A stretch of DNA of 64,000 bases from Pseudanabaena sp. FACHB-2040. Lineage in GTDB: Bacteria > Cyanobacteriota > Cyanobacteriia > Phormidesmidales > Phormidesmidaceae. A program made the position numbers and the translations under genes. Below, in pieces: positions 6,248 to 19,944 of this stretch (position 1 is its first letter; the number at the start of each line of letters is the position of its first letter). The stretch is taken from assembly GCF_014696715.1 (NCBI RefSeq), contig NZ_JACJQO010000005.1, positions 620,001 to 684,000 on the forward strand. Reading direction: 5' to 3'. The notes under the pieces are model-generated. The model was not told where the DNA came from, searched no databases, and was given only the letters and a program-made list of their open reading frames with translations.

Positions 6248-6251
6248 GTTG

Positions 6252-6578
6252 ATGCCGCCCGCTAAAGCCAATCTGTTCTCACTGCCCAACCCCTTGTCCA
6301 ACATCGAGGTATTTGAACCGCTCTTTGATAAGGGTAATTGCCTAATAGAGCGCATCATTTCGAGTGGGCAAATCACCCCTGCCGGTGAATGGTACGACCA
6401 GAAACGCGACGAATGGGTGATCTTACTGCAGGGTCAGGCGAGGCTGGCCTACGAAGACGGCAGCGAAACCGCTCTAGAGTCAGGAGACTACGTTCTGATT
6501 CCGGCTCACTGTAAACACAGAGTTGTCTACACCAGTGCAGAACCCCCCTGTATCTGGCTAGCGGTTCATTTGGACTAG
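6252..6578 (+). CDS. small cupin-domain protein
   Basis: A 108-residue single-cupin protein. ATG 6252 is preferred over a TTG one codon earlier. The sequence shows a compact beta-barrel pattern: EWVILLQGQARLAYEDG, then LESGDYVLIPAHCKHRV, typical of the cupin motifs 1 and 2. Usual cupin 1 metal ligands (HxH) are here partly replaced (the region reads DEWVILL), while His residues in HCKHRV remain. Family members include cupin-2 isomerase-like and regulatory proteins; no substrate is evident. It is probably in one transcript with the upstream phosphatase and converges on ecfT. Confidence 0.75.
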   Translation: MPPAKANLFSLPNPLSNIEVFEPLFDKGNCLIERIISSGQITPAGEWYDQKRDEWVILLQGQARLAYEDGSETALESGDYVLIPAHCKHRVVYTSAEPPCIWLAVHLD

Positions 6579-6616: not shown

Positions 6617-7414
6617 TTAGCTAGAACCATCAGAGGAGCCAGAGAACCAAGGTAGCCAGGAATCTGGCAACCCACCTACCCGATCTGCCAAAGCTAGACC
6701 TAGGACTGCTACCCCGATGAGCAGCATAATCCAGTCCAAGAGATTCAGCTTCCCCAGCCCCGACGATTTGCGGCCAAAACCTCGGGTTTCCAGAGTGGCC
6801 ATTAAGGTAGGTGCCCGTCGCAGCACCGCAAATAAAATGGGTAACGACAGCCTCATAGAGTTCCAAACCAGCTTGAAAATGTTCTTCGTGTCCAACTCAA
6901 CACCCTTGAGCTGCATTGCTTTGCTGATTTGCATAGCTTCAGCCAGGGTGGTGTAAAGCAGGCGGTAAGACAGCCCTACTGCAAAGGCAACAATTCCAGG
7001 TAAGCGCAGCCCTCGCAGCCCTCGCGTCAGGTCATTGGGGTCCATCGTAGAGAGCAAGCTGATGCTGACGACAATGGCAGCTGTCCAAGCCAGAATCAGG
7101 CGCAGTTCAGTTGTTGCAACCTCTATCACTTTGCCGTAATCTCCTGCTAGGATTGCGCCTCCCGCCGGGATGATCATCAGCACGATGAAGGTCGGTAGGT
7201 GAATTGCCCACAATACAGCCAGCCATTTCCAGGGAGTGCGTGCCAGTACAGCAGTAAGAAATCCTAGGACGACGGGCACCAGCATCCATTGCCAGGTTGG
7301 AGCCACAAATAGATAAAAAAATAGTAGAAGCAGCAACAGGATTTTTACGCGCGGATCTCGGTCATGAACGACCGTATCGTAATCTCGATAAAGGACAGGT
7401 ACACGAGCTGTCAT
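6617..7414 (-). CDS. ECF transporter transmembrane (T) component, EcfT/CbiQ family
   Basis: 265 residues with about five to six hydrophobic segments (the first near 25-60), matching the CbiQ/EcfT scaffold of energy-coupling-factor importers. The cytoplasmic coupling helices carry AMQLKGVELD (~165) and LETRGFGRK (~210); the second has the usual Arg-Gly, whereas the first has Lys-Gly where an Arg is customary. An AGGAGG Shine-Dalgarno lies inside the 3' end of the ATPase gene, whose TAG abuts this ATG, so translation is coupled. It works with the adjacent ATPase and S component. Confidence 0.9.
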   Translation of the reverse strand: MTARVPVLYRDYDTVVHDRDPRVKILLLLLLFFYLFVAPTWQWMLVPVVLGFLTAVLARTPWKWLAVLWAIHLPTFIVLMIIPAGGAILAGDYGKVIEVATTELRLILAWTAAIVVSISLLSTMDPNDLTRGLRGLRLPGIVAFAVGLSYRLLYTTLAEAMQISKAMQLKGVELDTKNIFKLVWNSMRLSLPILFAVLRRAPTLMATLETRGFGRKSSGLGKLNLLDWIMLLIGVAVLGLALADRVGGLPDSWLPWFSGSSDGSS

Positions 7415-9163
7415 CTAGGCCTCCTGGTATTGAGATAGTTTTGCAATCAACTCATCGACCGTTGTGGCCTGAGTCTCTAACCGCTGAGCGAGCTGAGCCG
7501 CATAGGGGGGATGAATATATAGATCGGAAAGTTGAGGCCAATTTTGCTCGGCAAACACCTCTTGCACCGACCCTTGCAGCACGATCTGTCCCCGATCCAT
7601 TACGGTGATGGTGTCTGCAACTTCAGCAACAAAATCGACATCGTTTTCGGTGATTAGAATGGCTTTACCCATGTCACGGAGCCGGGCAATAGTTTCCTTG
7701 AGCTTGCGGCGGGAAGTTGCACTCAGCCCAACCGAGGGCTCATCTAGCGAAATGACCTGAGGGTCAACGGCTAAGGCCTCTGCAATCGTAACCAGTCGGC
7801 GCAACCCTGCAGGGAGTAGCACCGGGTCTTGATCAAGCAGCTTTTCTGAAATGCCGACCAGCTCGCAAGCTTGGGAAATCTTTTGTTGAATATACTGGTC
7901 GTCGTATCGCTGATGCTTACCAAATAACCCTTTGCGTTTGTATTGACGCTCCCGCAGCGGAAACCTAATTTCATCCCTGACGCTACGTTCGGTAATGTGT
8001 TCGTCTGGGTTTTGAAACACGGTGCCGACTTTCATGGCTAAATCGGTTGCACTGCTGCACTGGGTATCAATGCCGCAAACAGAAACCTTTCCGTTGCTGG
8101 GTTTTAACAGGCCTGCAATATTTAGCACTAGGGTGGTCTTACCGGCGCTGCTGTTGCCTACAATGGCACGGACTTCTCCTTCCCGCAGGGCGAAGTTCAC
8201 GTCTTTCAGAGCTTGAGTGCCGTCTGGGTAACAGAAGCTGAGCTGTTCAACTTGCACTAGGGTTTGACCAAGCTGAGGATCAGTTACTGAGGCCCCGTTG
8301 CCTAACTGCTGCTGTCTAGGCTCTGGGCCGAACTTAGGATCAAAAGCCTGCTCAAACTCCTCGAAGGTTAAGGGAGAACTGGGTAATCCTAACGCGCGAG
8401 CCAGCCGCAAGCTCACAGGAGGCGTCGCATCTGCATGGGATACCAGGTCGTCATCGCGCAGAATATCCTCTGGCTTCCCTTCGGCAACAACACTTCCATC
8501 AACAATGACCAGAATGCGATCAGCAATCTCTTGCAGCAGATGGGTGTCTTGCTCGACCACCACCAGCGTTTTTTCTCCGGCCAAGTCTTCAATAATTTGA
8601 CGGACTTTGTCTTGTCCCCGTGGGTCGAGACGATCGATTGCTTTGTCGAAAATCAGAATTTGGGGGTCGAGGGCAAGGGTCGCTGCGATCGCAAGCCGCT
8701 GTTGCTGTCCCCCCGAAAGCTCCCACACTCGCTTCTTCTGCAGCTCGTCGAGGTTTAACCCCACCTGATTTAGCAAATCTCGCGCCCGGTTTTCTGCCTC
8801 CTGATCCGAGAAACCCCGATTTATTAAGGGATTTTTAACTTCATCGAGTACTTTTAACTGCGTCAGTTGTCCGGCATAGTCTTCAAACACCATGCCAATG
8901 GGATGGTCAGCCTCTTCGTCCTGATTAGTCTGGGAAGGCTGGTGCCCATTCCGATGCACCTCCATTTCGCCGGAGGTTTCGCCCCCTGTGATGCGAGGTG
9001 CAAGCCCTGCAATCGCCATACACAACGTCGTTTTTCCGGCTCCAACGGGTCCAATAATCCCTAGGATTTCTCCTTTTTGAATGTCAAATGACACCCTATC
9101 CAAGGCACTCTTTTCAACTCCGGGGTAGGTGAACTTAAAATCTTTGGCTTTGACAATTTGCAT
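7415..9163 (-). CDS. fused ECF transporter ATPase (two ABC cassettes, asymmetric active sites)
   Basis: 582 residues with two ABC nucleotide-binding domains. NBD1: Walker A GPVGAGKTT (38-46), Q-loop position VFED (Glu94 instead of Gln), canonical signature LSGGQ (149-153), Walker B ILIFDK (Lys174 where the catalytic Glu is expected), H-loop EQD (Gln205 instead of His). NBD2: Walker A GNSSAGKTT (336-344), Q-loop VFQN (Gln384), degenerate signature LPAGL (450-454), Walker B VISLDE (Glu475 present), H-loop END (Asn507 instead of His). One composite site is thus near consensus and the other degenerate. It powers the EcfT/S-component importer encoded by its neighbours. SD AGGAAGGA precedes the ATG. 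Confidence 0.92.
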   Translation of the reverse strand: MQIVKAKDFKFTYPGVEKSALDRVSFDIQKGEILGIIGPVGAGKTTLCMAIAGLAPRITGGETSGEMEVHRNGHQPSQTNQDEEADHPIGMVFEDYAGQLTQLKVLDEVKNPLINRGFSDQEAENRARDLLNQVGLNLDELQKKRVWELSGGQQQRLAIAATLALDPQILIFDKAIDRLDPRGQDKVRQIIEDLAGEKTLVVVEQDTHLLQEIADRILVIVDGSVVAEGKPEDILRDDDLVSHADATPPVSLRLARALGLPSSPLTFEEFEQAFDPKFGPEPRQQQLGNGASVTDPQLGQTLVQVEQLSFCYPDGTQALKDVNFALREGEVRAIVGNSSAGKTTLVLNIAGLLKPSNGKVSVCGIDTQCSSATDLAMKVGTVFQNPDEHITERSVRDEIRFPLRERQYKRKGLFGKHQRYDDQYIQQKISQACELVGISEKLLDQDPVLLPAGLRRLVTIAEALAVDPQVISLDEPSVGLSATSRRKLKETIARLRDMGKAILITENDVDFVAEVADTITVMDRGQIVLQGSVQEVFAEQNWPQLSDLYIHPPYAAQLAQRLETQATTVDELIAKLSQYQEA

Positions 9164-9233: not shown

Positions 9234-9833
9234 CTAACTTGCGTTAGCAAAACCAGGCAAACGTCTTTTTCTGCGGTAATACTCAATTCCACGAGGAGCA
9301 AATCCTAAATATCGTTCAACTCGTCCATACAGCCGGGGCATGAGCAAAACTGCTGGAATTGCTCCTAAAATGATGCCGTCGTTGATGGTGTTGCCAATAG
9401 CACTCCAAATAGCAACTCGCAATAACTCTTGATCAAACAGGAGCAGCGCAGTCACTTCAATCACCGCATGCAGGAAGCCGGATACCAATACCGCAAAGGC
9501 TAAGCGAGCTTTGTTTAAGGGGCGATTGCCGACGATATAGCCACCTACAACAAACCCTACAAGGTAGCCTATAGCTCCAATCGGATCATCAATCTCATAT
9601 CCCTCAAGCAAATCCCGCAAAAACTCCCCTAGCATTCCGCCCAACCCAACAGCAAGGAGCGGCCCCCAAGCTCTTGGAACCAGGGCCGCAAATACCATCG
9701 GGATGAAAAAGGGCTTGAAATCGATATCAACCGGAATTTCAGGAATTGCTTCCACCAAAGTCAAAGCAAGGAAAAACGATACTGCAACGACGACCGAAAC
9801 TACAGTCAGCTTAGGAATATTGGCACTTTGCAT
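9234..9833 (-). CDS. ECF transporter substrate-binding (S) component, substrate unknown
   Basis: A 199-residue integral membrane protein with about five to six hydrophobic helices (e.g. VVSVVVAVSFFLALTL, FFIPMVFAALVPRAWGPLLA, AIGYLVGFVVGGYIVG). Size, topology and position upstream of a fused ECF ATPase and EcfT identify it as an S component. It does not show features I associate with BioY, ThiT, RibU or CbiM, so the vitamin or metal ligand is unknown. The acidic loop FLRDLLEGYEIDDPIG and a charged C-terminal tail (YYRRKRRLPG) are notable. The gene is first in the ecf operon and preceded by a long gene-free region. Confidence 0.8.
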   Translation of the reverse strand: MQSANIPKLTVVSVVVAVSFFLALTLVEAIPEIPVDIDFKPFFIPMVFAALVPRAWGPLLAVGLGGMLGEFLRDLLEGYEIDDPIGAIGYLVGFVVGGYIVGNRPLNKARLAFAVLVSGFLHAVIEVTALLLFDQELLRVAIWSAIGNTINDGIILGAIPAVLLMPRLYGRVERYLGFAPRGIEYYRRKRRLPGFANAS

Positions 9834-10589
9834 AGAGAAATCCCTATAACTTTAAATCAATTGTTTGCCTGAGAAACCACTTTTTAACTGACAAACAAGA
9901 AGAAGAAAATGCCTTTTTGTCTTGCAGAACACAATTCTCAAATTTAAGGTCGAATTAACCTTTTCTTATCCTAAACAAAGCGTTTCTCAAGCACTTTGAT
10001 TTTTGCAGATTGGTCAACAGTGCGTTTATAACTTTAGAGGGAATTGTACAAAGGCACGTTATTTATAAGCCGGGAAAAAAAGCGCTACCCACTCTTGAGA
10101 TAAGCAAAGCATAGGGCTGGCATTTGCAGTACTTGCGCTTATTTCCGTCCTCTCTAGCAATTTGAATCTGGCCATCAATCTGCACGATCTAAACTTGATC
10201 GTGTCAGAGCTAATAGATAACCTCTCTAGTCATCAATAGTGATGATTAAGAATGGAACTTATGTATTTACGAGAAAACCAGAGCAGCGGAACACACCTTT
10301 TCAAGCATTGAAGATCTTGGGCAGGAAGATCTTTTTCTCACCAGGCGGGTATGCATTCTGCTTTCCGAGCGATCGCTTCTGTTTTCGCCAAGATATGTGC
10401 TCCACTACCTTGTCTCTGCAATAAGTTGATCCATAGTCGATCAATCTGAAGCCAGTTCTAAGCAGTTCGGCCCGTGAGCCCACCCAGGATCAGGACAGTT
10501 CGATCAGCAGATGCTGTGACCACTAACGCTTATTCGCAGCATCGGGTTTGACCTCTACGTTGGCAAGACTGAGGCTATGTGCGATCGCA
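9834..10589. other. 756-base gene-free region upstream of the ECF operon
   Basis: No convincing gene was found. A short + frame at 10239-10424 has no recognisable similarity or ribosome site and is judged spurious. On the minus strand (towards the ECF operon) there is a weak hairpin with AGCGC/GCGCT ends at about 10140-10080 followed by a run of seven T (10080-10074), which could be a terminator for the peptidase E transcript or an attenuator in the ECF leader. A perfect 7-bp inverted repeat (CACGATC / GATCGTG) lies at 10183-10203. I do not recognise a known riboswitch. Confidence 0.4.
10183..10203. promoter_or_regulatory. inverted repeat, possible operator
   Basis: CACGATC, a 7-base spacer, then GATCGTG: perfect dyad symmetry about 350 bases upstream of the ECF S-component gene. 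The size suits a dimeric repressor site, and the lack of a T-run argues against a terminator. There is no direct evidence of function. Confidence 0.25.
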
Positions 10590-11306
10590 TCATTCCAGCG
10601 CACCGCCTAAATAAGTAGGCGTCAAAACGGTTTCTGTCACCGAATCTCCGCATTTCTCCACGCGGTAGGCTTTAGCCTCAAGGTGAGAACTCACAACTTT
10701 CTCTATCTGCTCGTTCACGAAATGTAGCGCAACCCCATCATCTGCTGCGTACCCATTGCTTAAGAGACTATTTGCTATAAGCTGATGATAAATAGGTCTT
10801 CTTTGAGGATGGTTATAGTGGGGAGAATGGCTGCCCTTGATGAATCCTAAACACTTCAACGGATTTAATTGCCCTGGCAGGTAGTCACTGACGCCTTCTT
10901 CAAACCAACAGAGTGACCCCGCACTTACCCCACAAAGAATTGTGCCTTTCTCCCAAGCTTCTTTGATAATTTGATCAAGTTCCCAAGCTTTCCACAGAGC
11001 CAATAAATTTCTTGTGTTGCCGCCACCCACATAAAGGATGTCTTGCTCCAACACAAAAGACCGTAGATCAACGGTGGGAGGGCTAAATAAAGAAAGGTGG
11101 CAGGGAGTGCAGGAAAACTGCATAAAGGCAGCGTAGAACTGAACAATATAAGAATCGCGATCGCCACCCGCTGTTGGCACCAAGCAAACTCGTGGTTTGT
11201 CTTTAGCAGCTAGGTTTAGGATGTACTGTTCGATTAATGGGTTGTCAGGCTCCTTTGAAAAACCGCCGCCACCTATTGCAACAATCTGGCGTTTGATTTC
11301 AGACAT
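10590..11306 (-). CDS. peptidase E-like protein (family S51)
   Basis: 238 residues, cytoplasmic, related to alpha-aspartyl dipeptidase (PepE) and cyanophycinase. The N-terminus IVAIGGGGFSKE matches Gram-positive and cyanobacterial PepE-like proteins. YVGGGNTRNLL (~92-102) and the nucleophile elbow GVSAGS (126-131, Ser128) are clear, and a His-rich segment (SHSPHYNHP) follows. S51 peptidase E enzymes cleave N-terminal Asp dipeptides; cyanophycinases cleave the beta-Asp-Arg polymer but are usually longer (~270 residues), so a dipeptidase role is more likely. It appears to be transcribed alone; men genes lie upstream on the same strand. Confidence 0.85.
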   Translation of the reverse strand: MSEIKRQIVAIGGGGFSKEPDNPLIEQYILNLAAKDKPRVCLVPTAGGDRDSYIVQFYAAFMQFSCTPCHLSLFSPPTVDLRSFVLEQDILYVGGGNTRNLLALWKAWELDQIIKEAWEKGTILCGVSAGSLCWFEEGVSDYLPGQLNPLKCLGFIKGSHSPHYNHPQRRPIYHQLIANSLLSNGYAADDGVALHFVNEQIEKVVSSHLEAKAYRVEKCGDSVTETVLTPTYLGGALE

Positions 11307-17601: not shown

Positions 17602-18330
17602 CTAGATGGTGTCAAAGTTCTCAATGAGCGGAAAGCTTTCAGCGTCTTTGGAGGGGTTGCCGGGGCGATAGGAAAACAGGGTTTTCATGCCGGCTGCCTG
17701 GGCTGCTTGGAGCTCTGCAGCGATATCAGAGATGAAAAGGATTTGCTCTGGAGGCAGGCCGATAGTAGAAGCAATTTTCTGGTAGCTTTCAGCTTCTTTT
17801 TTCGGGCCGGTAGTGGTGTCGAAATAGCCGCTGAGCCAGGTTGTCAAATCGCCTTGATCAGTGTGGGCAAACAGCAGCTTTTGCGCCTGGATGCTGCCCG
17901 AGGAGAAGATAAATAGCGCTTTACCCGCCGCTTTCCAGCGCTTAAAAGCGGGATAGACATCGGGGTAGATTTGGGATTGGAGGCTGCCGTCGGCGTAGCC
18001 CTGGTTCCACAGTTTGCCCTGGAGGGATTTGAGGCCGATGGACTTGCGATCGCACCCAATCAAATACTGAATATACGCCACTGCTGCTGTCGGCTCGTCC
18101 CCCTGCCAGTCCGGCAGATCCAGCCCTTGAACCCGGTCTGCTTCATACTCCTGTCGCAGCAGAGCCAGGTCGGCCTGAACCGCTGCCTCCTGTCCGTGGG
18201 CCTGGAGGAATCTTTCAGCTTGGTCGCGGGCAAAGGGAAAGAGGACGCCAAACACGAAGTCTACAGGGGTAGTCGTGCCCTCAATATCTAGAAGAATCGC
18301 CTCAACCTGATCTGAAATTCGCTCTGCCAT
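17602..18330 (-). CDS. mtnC: enolase-phosphatase E1 (MtnC), methionine salvage
   Basis: 242 residues from ATG 18330 (a frame extension to 18414 would run into a repeat). HAD-superfamily phosphatase: LLDIEGTTTPVDFVFGVLFPFA (~11-32) is the diagnostic MtnC motif I, FIFSSGS the motif II, and ILFISDIAAEL the motif IV. The enzyme enolises and dephosphorylates 2,3-diketo-5-methylthiopentyl-1-phosphate to the acireductone used by MtnD. It follows mtnB and mtnD on the same strand; a palindromic repeat lies between it and mtnD. Confidence 0.93.
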   Translation of the reverse strand: MAERISDQVEAILLDIEGTTTPVDFVFGVLFPFARDQAERFLQAHGQEAAVQADLALLRQEYEADRVQGLDLPDWQGDEPTAAVAYIQYLIGCDRKSIGLKSLQGKLWNQGYADGSLQSQIYPDVYPAFKRWKAAGKALFIFSSGSIQAQKLLFAHTDQGDLTTWLSGYFDTTTGPKKEAESYQKIASTIGLPPEQILFISDIAAELQAAQAAGMKTLFSYRPGNPSKDAESFPLIENFDTI

Positions 18331-18358
18331 TGCCCATCCCCGCGCATCAGTTAAACCT

Positions 18359-18432
18359 GTAGGGTGGGTTGAGGCTTTGCAAAACCCACAATCCTCGCCA
18401 ATGTTGGGTTTCACGTCTTCGACCCAACCTAC
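18359..18432. repeat. palindromic REP/MITE-like repeat inside the mtn operon
   Basis: The 74-base element begins GTAGGGTGGGTT and ends GACCCAACCTAC, which are nearly inverse complements. Internal AACCCACA and TGTTGGGTT also pair. Elements of this GTAGGGTGGGTT type are widespread in cyanobacterial and other bacterial genomes. It lies between mtnD and mtnC and may affect mRNA stability or reduce mtnC expression. Confidence 0.65.
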
Positions 18433-18503
18433 CAGTCGAATGGTCCTAAGTTGCTGTAGTGCATTAGTAGTAAGGGGGCATCATCGCATGACGCCCCCAT
18501 TTG

Positions 18504-19055
18504 CTAAGCCGTTACAAAAGCAGGGCCAAAGCACATCGGCACATAGCTCTGCTCTTTAGCGCTTTCGGTGTAGTGGGGAGCCCAACCCGACATCTCCTGA
18601 AACATGCGAATGGCGCGAATTCTGCGATCGCCGCAGAGTCCAAACCAGTGGTGCGTGCCGCGCGGCACGACCAGCAGATCTCCCGGCCCAACCTCAATGC
18701 CAACGACCGGACCAGTCTTCGGATTGATATGGAAAAGCCCGTGTCCAGACAGTGTGAAGCGCACCTCGTCTTCATCGTGCCAGTGCTCTTTACTGAACTT
18801 ATCCAGCATGACCTCCAGGTTGGGAGTGTCGGGCTTGATATCGATCACGTCGGCGGTAACATACGCCCCAGACTGCTTCAGCACTTCAATTTCTTTAGAG
18901 TATGCCGCTAGCACCTCTTCAGCCGTGGCCTCTTCTGGCAGCGGGTGGGATGGTTCCCAGCGCTCAAAGCCAATGCCGATGTTGGCCAGATAGGCCTTGA
19001 TCTCTTCGGGATCCGTGATTCTGCGATTTTCTTCAGCGATATTGAGAACAGCCAT
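18504..19055 (-). CDS. mtnD: acireductone dioxygenase (MtnD), methionine salvage
   Basis: 183 residues from ATG 19055, chosen because GAGGTGACT gives a ribosome site at ideal spacing. Cupin-fold ARD: the metal ligands lie in KEHWHDEDEVRF (HxH...E, ~94-105) and RGTHHWF (~136-142). It oxidises acireductone to the keto acid precursor of methionine (Fe form) or to an off-pathway product with CO (Ni form); sequence cannot tell which metal is used. It lies in an operon with mtnB (upstream) and mtnC (downstream). Confidence 0.94.
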   Translation of the reverse strand: MAVLNIAEENRRITDPEEIKAYLANIGIGFERWEPSHPLPEEATAEEVLAAYSKEIEVLKQSGAYVTADVIDIKPDTPNLEVMLDKFSKEHWHDEDEVRFTLSGHGLFHINPKTGPVVGIEVGPGDLLVVPRGTHHWFGLCGDRRIRAIRMFQEMSGWAPHYTESAKEQSYVPMCFGPAFVTA

Positions 19056-19171
19056 AGTCACCTCGTAAGAATTCAAAAAAGAGAAGGTTCAAAACTTTAG
19101 GAGTGTCACCCATCACCGCATTCAGGGTGGTGATCTGCTCGCCCCGGTGCAACATTCTGGGCTTAAGCGGG

Positions 19172-19795
19172 CTACATTGCAGGCAGCGTCAGTTTGCGGT
19201 AGGTCAATTCAAACAAAAATTCCAAAATTTCCAGGTGTCGTCGTGCCTGAAATAACGTATTACCCCAGGTATACAGGCCATGACCGGATAAAAGAACCCC
19301 GTGGGAATGCGGGTTCTGCTGCAAAATAGGGCGGATCTCTTGACTCAACTGCTGCATGTCTTGGGAATTGGGCAGCACCGGAATCTGCACTGTCGTGTCG
19401 TGGGTGGTGATGCCCTCTAGACCCTTGAGCATTTCATAGCCCGCTAAAGGCACCGCCCCCTGAGCCGCATAGACAACCGACAGCAGCGTATTAAAAACCG
19501 AGTGAGTATGCAGCACCGCTCCGGCCCCAGTCGCTTCGACAATAGCTAAGTGCAGCGGCGTTTCTGCCGAGGCTTTGCCGCTACCCTCAATTACCACCCC
19601 CTGCTGGTTCACCCGAATCAGGTCTGCCGGAGTCACCATGCCCTTATCCACTCCACTGGGAGCCATCAGCAGCGCCAGCGGCTCACGACTATCCACCGCA
19701 CTGAAGTTGCCGCCAGTGCCCGTCGCCCAGCCCTTTCCATGAATCTCCTTAATTACCCAACTCAGCGCTTCCCGCTGATCCGGGGAATACAGCAT
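19172..19795 (-). CDS. mtnB: methylthioribulose-1-phosphate dehydratase (MtnB)
   Basis: 207 residues from ATG 19795, with AGGAG eight bases upstream. Class II aldolase fold: TGTGGNFSAVD (~26-36) binds the phosphate, HTHSVF (~95) and SGHGLYTWG (~168) supply the zinc ligands. The enzyme dehydrates 5-methylthioribulose-1-phosphate, the step before MtnC. It is the first gene of the mtnB-mtnD-mtnC group, recycling the methylthio group from polyamine synthesis. The upstream genes of the pathway (mtnA, mtnK or mtnP) are not in the window. Confidence 0.93.
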   Translation of the reverse strand: MLYSPDQREALSWVIKEIHGKGWATGTGGNFSAVDSREPLALLMAPSGVDKGMVTPADLIRVNQQGVVIEGSGKASAETPLHLAIVEATGAGAVLHTHSVFNTLLSVVYAAQGAVPLAGYEMLKGLEGITTHDTTVQIPVLPNSQDMQQLSQEIRPILQQNPHSHGVLLSGHGLYTWGNTLFQARRHLEILEFLFELTYRKLTLPAM

Positions 19796-19944
19796 CGCCT
19801 GACTCCTGCCCCTGGCCGCGATAAAAATTCTCCGAATTAAATACAATAGCTTAGAAATTTGGGCTTTATCAGCCGCTTTGTATCGCCGGATACGGGTGCT
19901 CTACAAAAGTTAAAGTGCGGGGAGGGAGTTGGGATTGTTAGGCC

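Follow-up and report, generated by a model that had tools for sequence, protein, structure and literature searches.

The window analyzed here, a 64,000-nucleotide stretch of the genome of Pseudanabaena sp. FACHB-2040, carries a dedicated ECF transporter operon in the order S-AA'-T, with the gene for a fused ATPase in the middle. Taken together, its motif residues, relatives and gene neighborhoods make it rather probable that the encoded system is an ECF importer with one hydrolyzing and one binding-only ATP site, belonging to a small clade linked to phosphorus acquisition. The initial annotation of this region had drawn attention to the unequal ATP sites of the ATPase; that observation is confirmed and its interpretation is partly supported, and the apparent phosphorus link of the clade, absent from that annotation, is new in the present analysis.

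Organization of the ECF transporter operon

The central gene of the operon is a single unbroken open reading frame at positions 7415-9163, as previously given, on the minus strand, which had not been stated. It encodes a 582-aa fused ECF ATPase, EcfAA', in which Pfam recognizes two ABC_tran stretches, with NBD1 spanning approximately residues 1-245 and NBD2 approximately residues 301-548 (AlphaFold2 model, pLDDT 82.7). The protein exceeds the cut-offs of two NCBIfam profiles, TIGR04521 (348.8 bits; cut-off 330) and TIGR04520 (321.8 bits; cut-off 315), giving the two ECF-type ABC ATPase domains expected of an ECF transporter and bearing out its earlier identification as a fused ECF ATPase. The start of the T gene directly abuts the end of the AA' gene; its 265-aa product EcfT (6617-7414, minus strand) matches Pfam CbiQ with 72.7 bits against a cut-off of 25 (E=4.5e-20), as expected of the T component of an ECF transporter.

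The third gene, at 9234-9833 on the minus strand, encodes a 199-aa protein assigned as the S component from Pfam and structure matches and modeled as a six-helix membrane protein. Its match to Pfam ECF-ribofla_trS (22.6 bits) lies below the cut-off of 26.7, and its AlphaFold2 model, with three rows in the alignment, is of low confidence (pLDDT 60.7). When this model was used in a structure search, the top 21 matches were all ECF S components (Z 8.1-14.6), with the next row at 6.5. Despite the low pLDDT and the sub-cut-off Pfam score, the predicted fold is the six-helix S fold of ECF transporters. A search of PDB sequences with an S-component profile returned a chance match only (E 0.077).

In the operon, S, AA' and T genes have third-position GC contents of 44.0, 52.8 and 54.5% (values not assigned to individual genes here), below those of all 14 other sampled genes of the window (57.6-72.1%). 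Together with the rarity of the operon in cyanobacteria, this is compatible with its acquisition by transfer. Other genes were recorded around the operon: a peptidase family S51 protein (Pfam) is encoded upstream on the same strand (10590-11306), a small cupin protein with a sub-cut-off nif11_cupin match lies at 6249-6578, and three minus-strand genes at 17602-19846 resemble, by eye, a methionine salvage set (enolase-phosphatase, acireductone dioxygenase and an MtnB-like protein).

Motif residues of the two ATP sites

Motif residues were checked by position in the window's AA' protein and the key ones also by codon, and every residue and residue number named in the initial annotation proved correct; all coordinates below refer to the minus strand. 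NBD1 has an A-loop Tyr13, a Walker A of GPVGAGKTT (residues 38-46) and a Walker B of LIFDK, in which Asp173 is kept and Lys174 (codon AAA, 8642-8644) replaces the catalytic Glu; Gln205 (8549-8551) replaces the switch His, Glu94 (8882-8884, read from the codon) occupies the Q-loop, and the signature is LSGGQ (residues 149-153; 8705-8719). NBD2 has a Walker A of GNSSAGKTT (residues 336-344), the Q-loop Gln384, the catalytic Glu475 (7739-7741) and the signature LPAGL (residues 450-454; 7802-7816), with Asn507 (7643-7645) in place of the switch His; Glu475 and Asn507 were read by both codon and comparison.

In ABC ATPases, each composite site is formed by the Walker A/B motifs of one NBD and the signature of the other. 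This standard geometry supports the earlier proposal that the site joining the NBD1 Walker A/B motifs with the NBD2 signature is degenerate, whereas the one joining the NBD2 Walker A/B motifs with LSGGQ is near consensus. Specifically, the NBD1-side site keeps Tyr13, Walker A and Asp173 but has lost both the catalytic Glu and the switch His; in the NBD2-side site, Walker A, Gln384 and Glu475 are all present opposite the intact LSGGQ. With the NBD1 Glu and His absent, the protein would not have the two hydrolysis-competent ATP sites that are usual, rather than strictly defining, for ECF transporters.

Phyletic distribution of the clade

Among overlapping samples of 386, 63 and 291 genomes, close cyanobacterial matches came only from the window's own genome and from one other (G114), whose AA' protein is identical to that encoded at a Kastovskya adunca locus (L025); the next-best cyanobacterial matches had 31-34% identity. 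A plasmid collection contributed five further records with 44-48% identity, from Rubrobacter radiotolerans, Haladaptatus halobius, Halorussus limi (two plasmids) and Halorussus aquaticus, all of which also match the S component and keep the order S-AA'-T found in the window. After one Rubrobacter (L077) and one Halorussus aquaticus (L144) row identical to other rows were dropped before counting, the clade comprised six distinct AA' proteins from four lineages: that of the window, those of Kastovskya and Rubrobacter, and three haloarchaeal ones, which are close kin. The open reading frame is uninterrupted in every member.

These six were set against 85 further fused AA' proteins, drawn from the phyla of G664 (30) and G663 (25), from Bacillota (16), from cyanobacteria (4) and from elsewhere (10). 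The 4 cyanobacterial proteins come from the loci with 31-34% identity, of which 12 were inspected and found to keep the catalytic Glu and switch His of each NBD. Of the 20 Bacillota loci, four were left out, two for want of an extracted sequence (L168, L175) and two for a wrong reading frame (L169, L170), as were two loci that by annotation belong to other ABC systems with permease pairs (L151, L152). Matches occurred in 81 plasmid records, 16 of which were read for motifs, and haloarchaea were covered through plasmids only. A scan of genome contigs by N-terminal patterns returned one clade member in 30 loci; from loci L025-L054, the comparison drew on L025 directly and on the G664 locus L063 indirectly. 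Searches of Bacillota (398 genomes) and of the phylum of G664 (250 genomes) yielded lower-scoring fused AA' proteins, the examined loci falling outside the clade by motif, and no relatives were found in viral contigs. In a tree of 75 rows, the six AA' proteins formed a single clade with 100/100 support, which was retained when the motif columns were removed (SH-aLRT 100).

Two neighboring genes were seen in the relatives. The haloarchaeal copies carry, after the T gene, a gene for a protein of about 148 aa (L071, 8540-8986; L072, 8531-8977; L073, 8615-9061), the L071 copy of which has no match in Pfam or NCBIfam. In Kastovskya, the gene next after the operon encodes a Na/Ca exchanger (Pfam Na_Ca_ex; L025, 8685-9701).

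Conservation of the asymmetry

The check proposed with the initial annotation, an alignment with other fused AA' proteins, places the two key losses in the clade as a whole. The NBD1 catalytic Glu is missing from all six members (K in one, T in four, S in one) but present in 82 of the 85 others, the remaining three having Gln; the NBD1 switch His is likewise missing from all six (Q in one, R in one, N in four) but kept in 77/85. On the other side, the NBD2 catalytic Glu is kept throughout (6/6 and 85/85). A composite site without catalytic residues is therefore a conserved property of all six orthologs, and because these losses span the whole clade while most other proteins keep the residues, the NBD1 site is, as judged from sequence, degenerate by descent. 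On the tree built without motif columns, loss of the NBD1 Glu maps to two changes, and its three occurrences outside the clade are in Thermomicrobium, Halomarina and Haladaptatus pallidirubidus. Sequencing or annotation error was considered as a source of the main feature and ruled out, since independent relatives lack the same residues and have different replacements.

The clade is further marked by an insertion in NBD2. Between residues 398 and 425 its members have 27-29 residues as against 13-16 in all others, an excess of 12-14; in the window's protein the insertion covers approximately residues 406-420 (7904-7948, minus strand), and the AlphaFold2 model predicts a beta-hairpin there, with strands at 408-410 and 416-418.

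Not every substitution originally read as a sign of degeneracy has that meaning. Glu at the NBD1 Q-loop, as in Glu94, occurs in 18/85 of the other proteins, including cyanobacterial ones in which each NBD keeps its catalytic Glu and switch His, and does not mark a degenerate site. Nor does the LPAGL signature mark one: a non-canonical second signature is the usual state (80/85 others, with LSGGQ, LSGGE or MSGGQ in 5/85); only Pro451 leans to the clade (6/6 against 5/85), and Leu454 is peculiar to the window's protein. Asn507 is indeed present, but it is shared by the window and Kastovskya only; Rubrobacter and the haloarchaea keep His at this position, as do 85/85 of the other fused proteins, so that in the two cyanobacteria the supposedly good site is itself not fully consensus.

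One could ask whether the NBD1 site is simply decaying by drift under relaxed selection in an operon that is being lost. The presence of the operon in only two of the cyanobacterial genomes searched and the variety of the replacement residues (K, T, S) would fit such decay. However, the intact reading frames speak against it, as does the invariance of the binding residues Y13, D173, Y312 and D474 (6/6), together with a loss common to one clade that extends across bacteria and archaea. Moreover, NBD1 is about as conserved as NBD2 (57% versus 53% between the window and Kastovskya), indicating that NBD1 is under selection and arguing against decay. We regard this explanation as very improbable and retain that of a conserved, binding-only NBD1-side site.

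Asn507 bears on a further alternative, namely that the cyanobacterial members hydrolyze little or no ATP because both sites are impaired, the complex serving in ATP-gated facilitated transport, slow pumping or nutrient sensing and not as a normal importer. Besides the missing His, Kastovskya reads LAQGQ where LSGGQ is expected, and residue 481 of the D-loop is S or G instead of D in both cyanobacteria; the hydrolyzing site of these members may itself be failing. Against so impaired a motor, the S-AA'-T operon is intact throughout, as are Walker A, Gln384 and Glu475, and Rubrobacter and the haloarchaea retain the NBD2 His. According to PMC9867378, changing the switch His abolished ATPase activity in several transporters, with Pdr5 H1068A as an exception, so that at least one ABC transporter is active without this residue. 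We therefore consider a near-inactive motor unlikely, and favor one hydrolyzing site throughout the clade; with Asn in place of the switch His, hydrolysis in the two cyanobacterial members would probably be slower or differently regulated.

Genomic context and a probable phosphorus link

A Pho-box-like site of three 8-bp repeats at an 11-bp period lies at 9943-9972 on the plus strand, upstream of the S gene at 109 bp from its start codon and in the orientation opposite to the operon. With a matrix built from 27 published Pho boxes (PMC1906773), it scores 20.04, the best of 127,942 positions on both strands, the next being 12.86; on the operon strand the site reaches only 10.51, and a shuffle test of this operon-strand score attained it in 29/1000 intergenic shuffles. 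The best match in the 13.8-kb Kastovskya locus (19.98) is likewise upstream of S, so that three tandem Pho boxes precede the operon in both cyanobacteria, in opposite orientation in the window. None of 1000 shuffles of the Kastovskya intergenic region reaches 19.98, nor does any of 292,034 positions in other cyanobacterial loci, where the best score is 19.0. For scale, the published Pho boxes themselves score 3.7-25.0 when left out one at a time, and the box before one pstS-like gene of the window's genome (L159) scores 6.66. No sigma-70-like promoter was found near the window's site, and visual inspection of the window's genes around the operon revealed none recognizable as a phosphorus gene. 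Upstream of the Rubrobacter and haloarchaeal copies there was no strong match (best 9.8) to this matrix; other regulators are expected in those organisms.

In these other lineages it is the gene neighborhoods that point to phosphorus. The Haladaptatus halobius operon sits in an island whose annotation lists four alkaline phosphatases (three of PhoD type, one of PhoX type), a 5'-nucleotidase and a pair of PhoU genes; the PhoU domain of the gene downstream of the operon is confirmed by Pfam. On two Halorussus plasmids, two pstS genes, pstC and pstA lie divergently upstream, joined by pstB in the longer stretch, and the third, Halorussus limi plasmid 3, has a PhoU gene (Pfam PhoU) downstream. The Rubrobacter operon adjoins remnant fragments of PhnC (TIGR02315, 1.5e-30), PhnE (TIGR01097, 2.6e-30) and an FAD oxidoreductase (TIGR03364, HpnW, 9.4e-33), the last being phosphonate-associated. 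Collectively, gene context and Pho boxes suggest that the operon would be expressed under phosphorus limitation, and on this genomic evidence the clade seems to be tied to phosphorus starvation or acquisition.

The S component offers a hint of the substrate. Ten acidic residues are invariant across the six S components (E28, E32, D36, D38, E70, D74, E77, E80, D82 and E126), which would favor a metal or other cation, or a molecule bearing one, over bare phosphate or another bare anion. A riboswitch hinting at the substrate was sought in Rfam, with no match at the gathering score in the window or in L025, L104, L071, L072 and L073; window positions 9500-10700 gave a single chance-level match (E 4.8).

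The acidic S component would also suit an importer outside phosphorus metabolism, for an unrelated vitamin or metal, with the Pho-like site and the neighboring genes being coincidental; the Na/Ca exchanger gene next to the Kastovskya operon and the arsenic genes that also lie near the operon on the Halorussus plasmids are in keeping with such a function. Nevertheless, separate phosphorus signals occur in all four lineages, so that coincidence appears the less likely account, although it deserves somewhat more credence than a near-inactive motor, and we continue to favor a phosphorus-linked importer.

Comparison with known transporters

The window's system resembles known ECF transporters with a fused A1-A2 ATPase and a dedicated S component in that a single operon encodes S, fused AA' and T, the ATPase exceeds the cut-offs of the ECF families and the S component has the predicted S fold. 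It differs in that the clade has lost the NBD1 catalytic Glu and switch His, has the extra 12-14-residue hairpin in NBD2 and a phosphorus-linked context, and in that the window's S component matches no known S family above cut-off.

Asymmetric ATP sites had been described initially as better known in exporters. Such exporters include TAP, TM287/288 and TmrAB (named in the review PMC7756269) and BmrCD (PMC4046567). As in the clade, one of their sites is without catalytic residues and the other near consensus, but they are built of two homologous membrane halves, whereas the window's system is an importer with one T and one S component. The description is also incomplete, because PMC11466899 presents RbsA and NupO of B. 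subtilis as importers with two NBDs in one chain and one degenerate site. In those proteins the second Walker A has no Lys, which affects binding, while the window's AA' keeps its binding residues and loses those for hydrolysis; their membrane proteins also differ from those of the window's system.

Also comparable are the three fused AA' proteins outside the clade in which NBD1 Glu is replaced by Gln and the His is also replaced, from Halomarina (L076), Haladaptatus pallidirubidus (L145) and Thermomicrobium (L075); their gene partners differ from those of the clade and they fall outside it on the tree. The haloarchaeal pair, from Halomarina sp. BND7 and Haladaptatus pallidirubidus, is encoded beside nucleoside hydrolase genes and has an NBD1 Walker B reading QQ or RQ for DE and Gln for the switch His; by these motifs it is a second, different lineage of putatively degenerate ECF ATPases. 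The Thermomicrobium roseum plasmid (L075, 3932-6643) encodes a 903-aa ECF ATPase protein whose NBD1 has a Walker A without Lys (GASGSGLTT), with Gln and Arg replacing the Walker B Glu and the switch His, respectively.

A proposed model for the asymmetric motor

In the ECF transporters studied, according to PMC10368641 and PMC7755397, the motor closes on binding ATP and the S component is expelled; Glu-to-Gln changes in both ATPases together trap the closed state and block transport. In the clade described here, ATP at the NBD1-side site would stay in place over several cycles and serve structurally, as one half of the closed dimer. Hydrolysis solely at the NBD2-side site would then reopen the motor and let S re-dock after its expulsion by ATP binding, in an operon that would be expressed when phosphorus is limiting.

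A more far-reaching version of this model can be proposed only tentatively, and we give it less than even weight, though more than any of the alternatives above. The clade might represent a class of phosphorus-starvation ECF importers exchanged among haloarchaea, Rubrobacter and cyanobacteria, in which one ATP is hydrolyzed per cycle and the acidic S component imports a phosphorus-scavenging product; it would then be the first ECF family in which evolution has fixed a motor with a single hydrolysis. In the titles and abstract openings searched, a coverage outside of which most subscription journals lie, we found no description of a degenerate ECF ATPase or of a Pho-regulon ECF transporter.

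Implications for ECF transporters

The clade bears on how many of its two ATPs an ECF transporter must hydrolyze per transport cycle; in the studies cited above, both sites were mutated together. A natural clade in which one site has been given up makes this question directly testable, and a naturally asymmetric ECF motor may trap intermediate states. For the organisms themselves, an ECF importer linked to phosphorus would indicate that cyanobacteria and haloarchaea scavenge this element through a step that has yet to be described.
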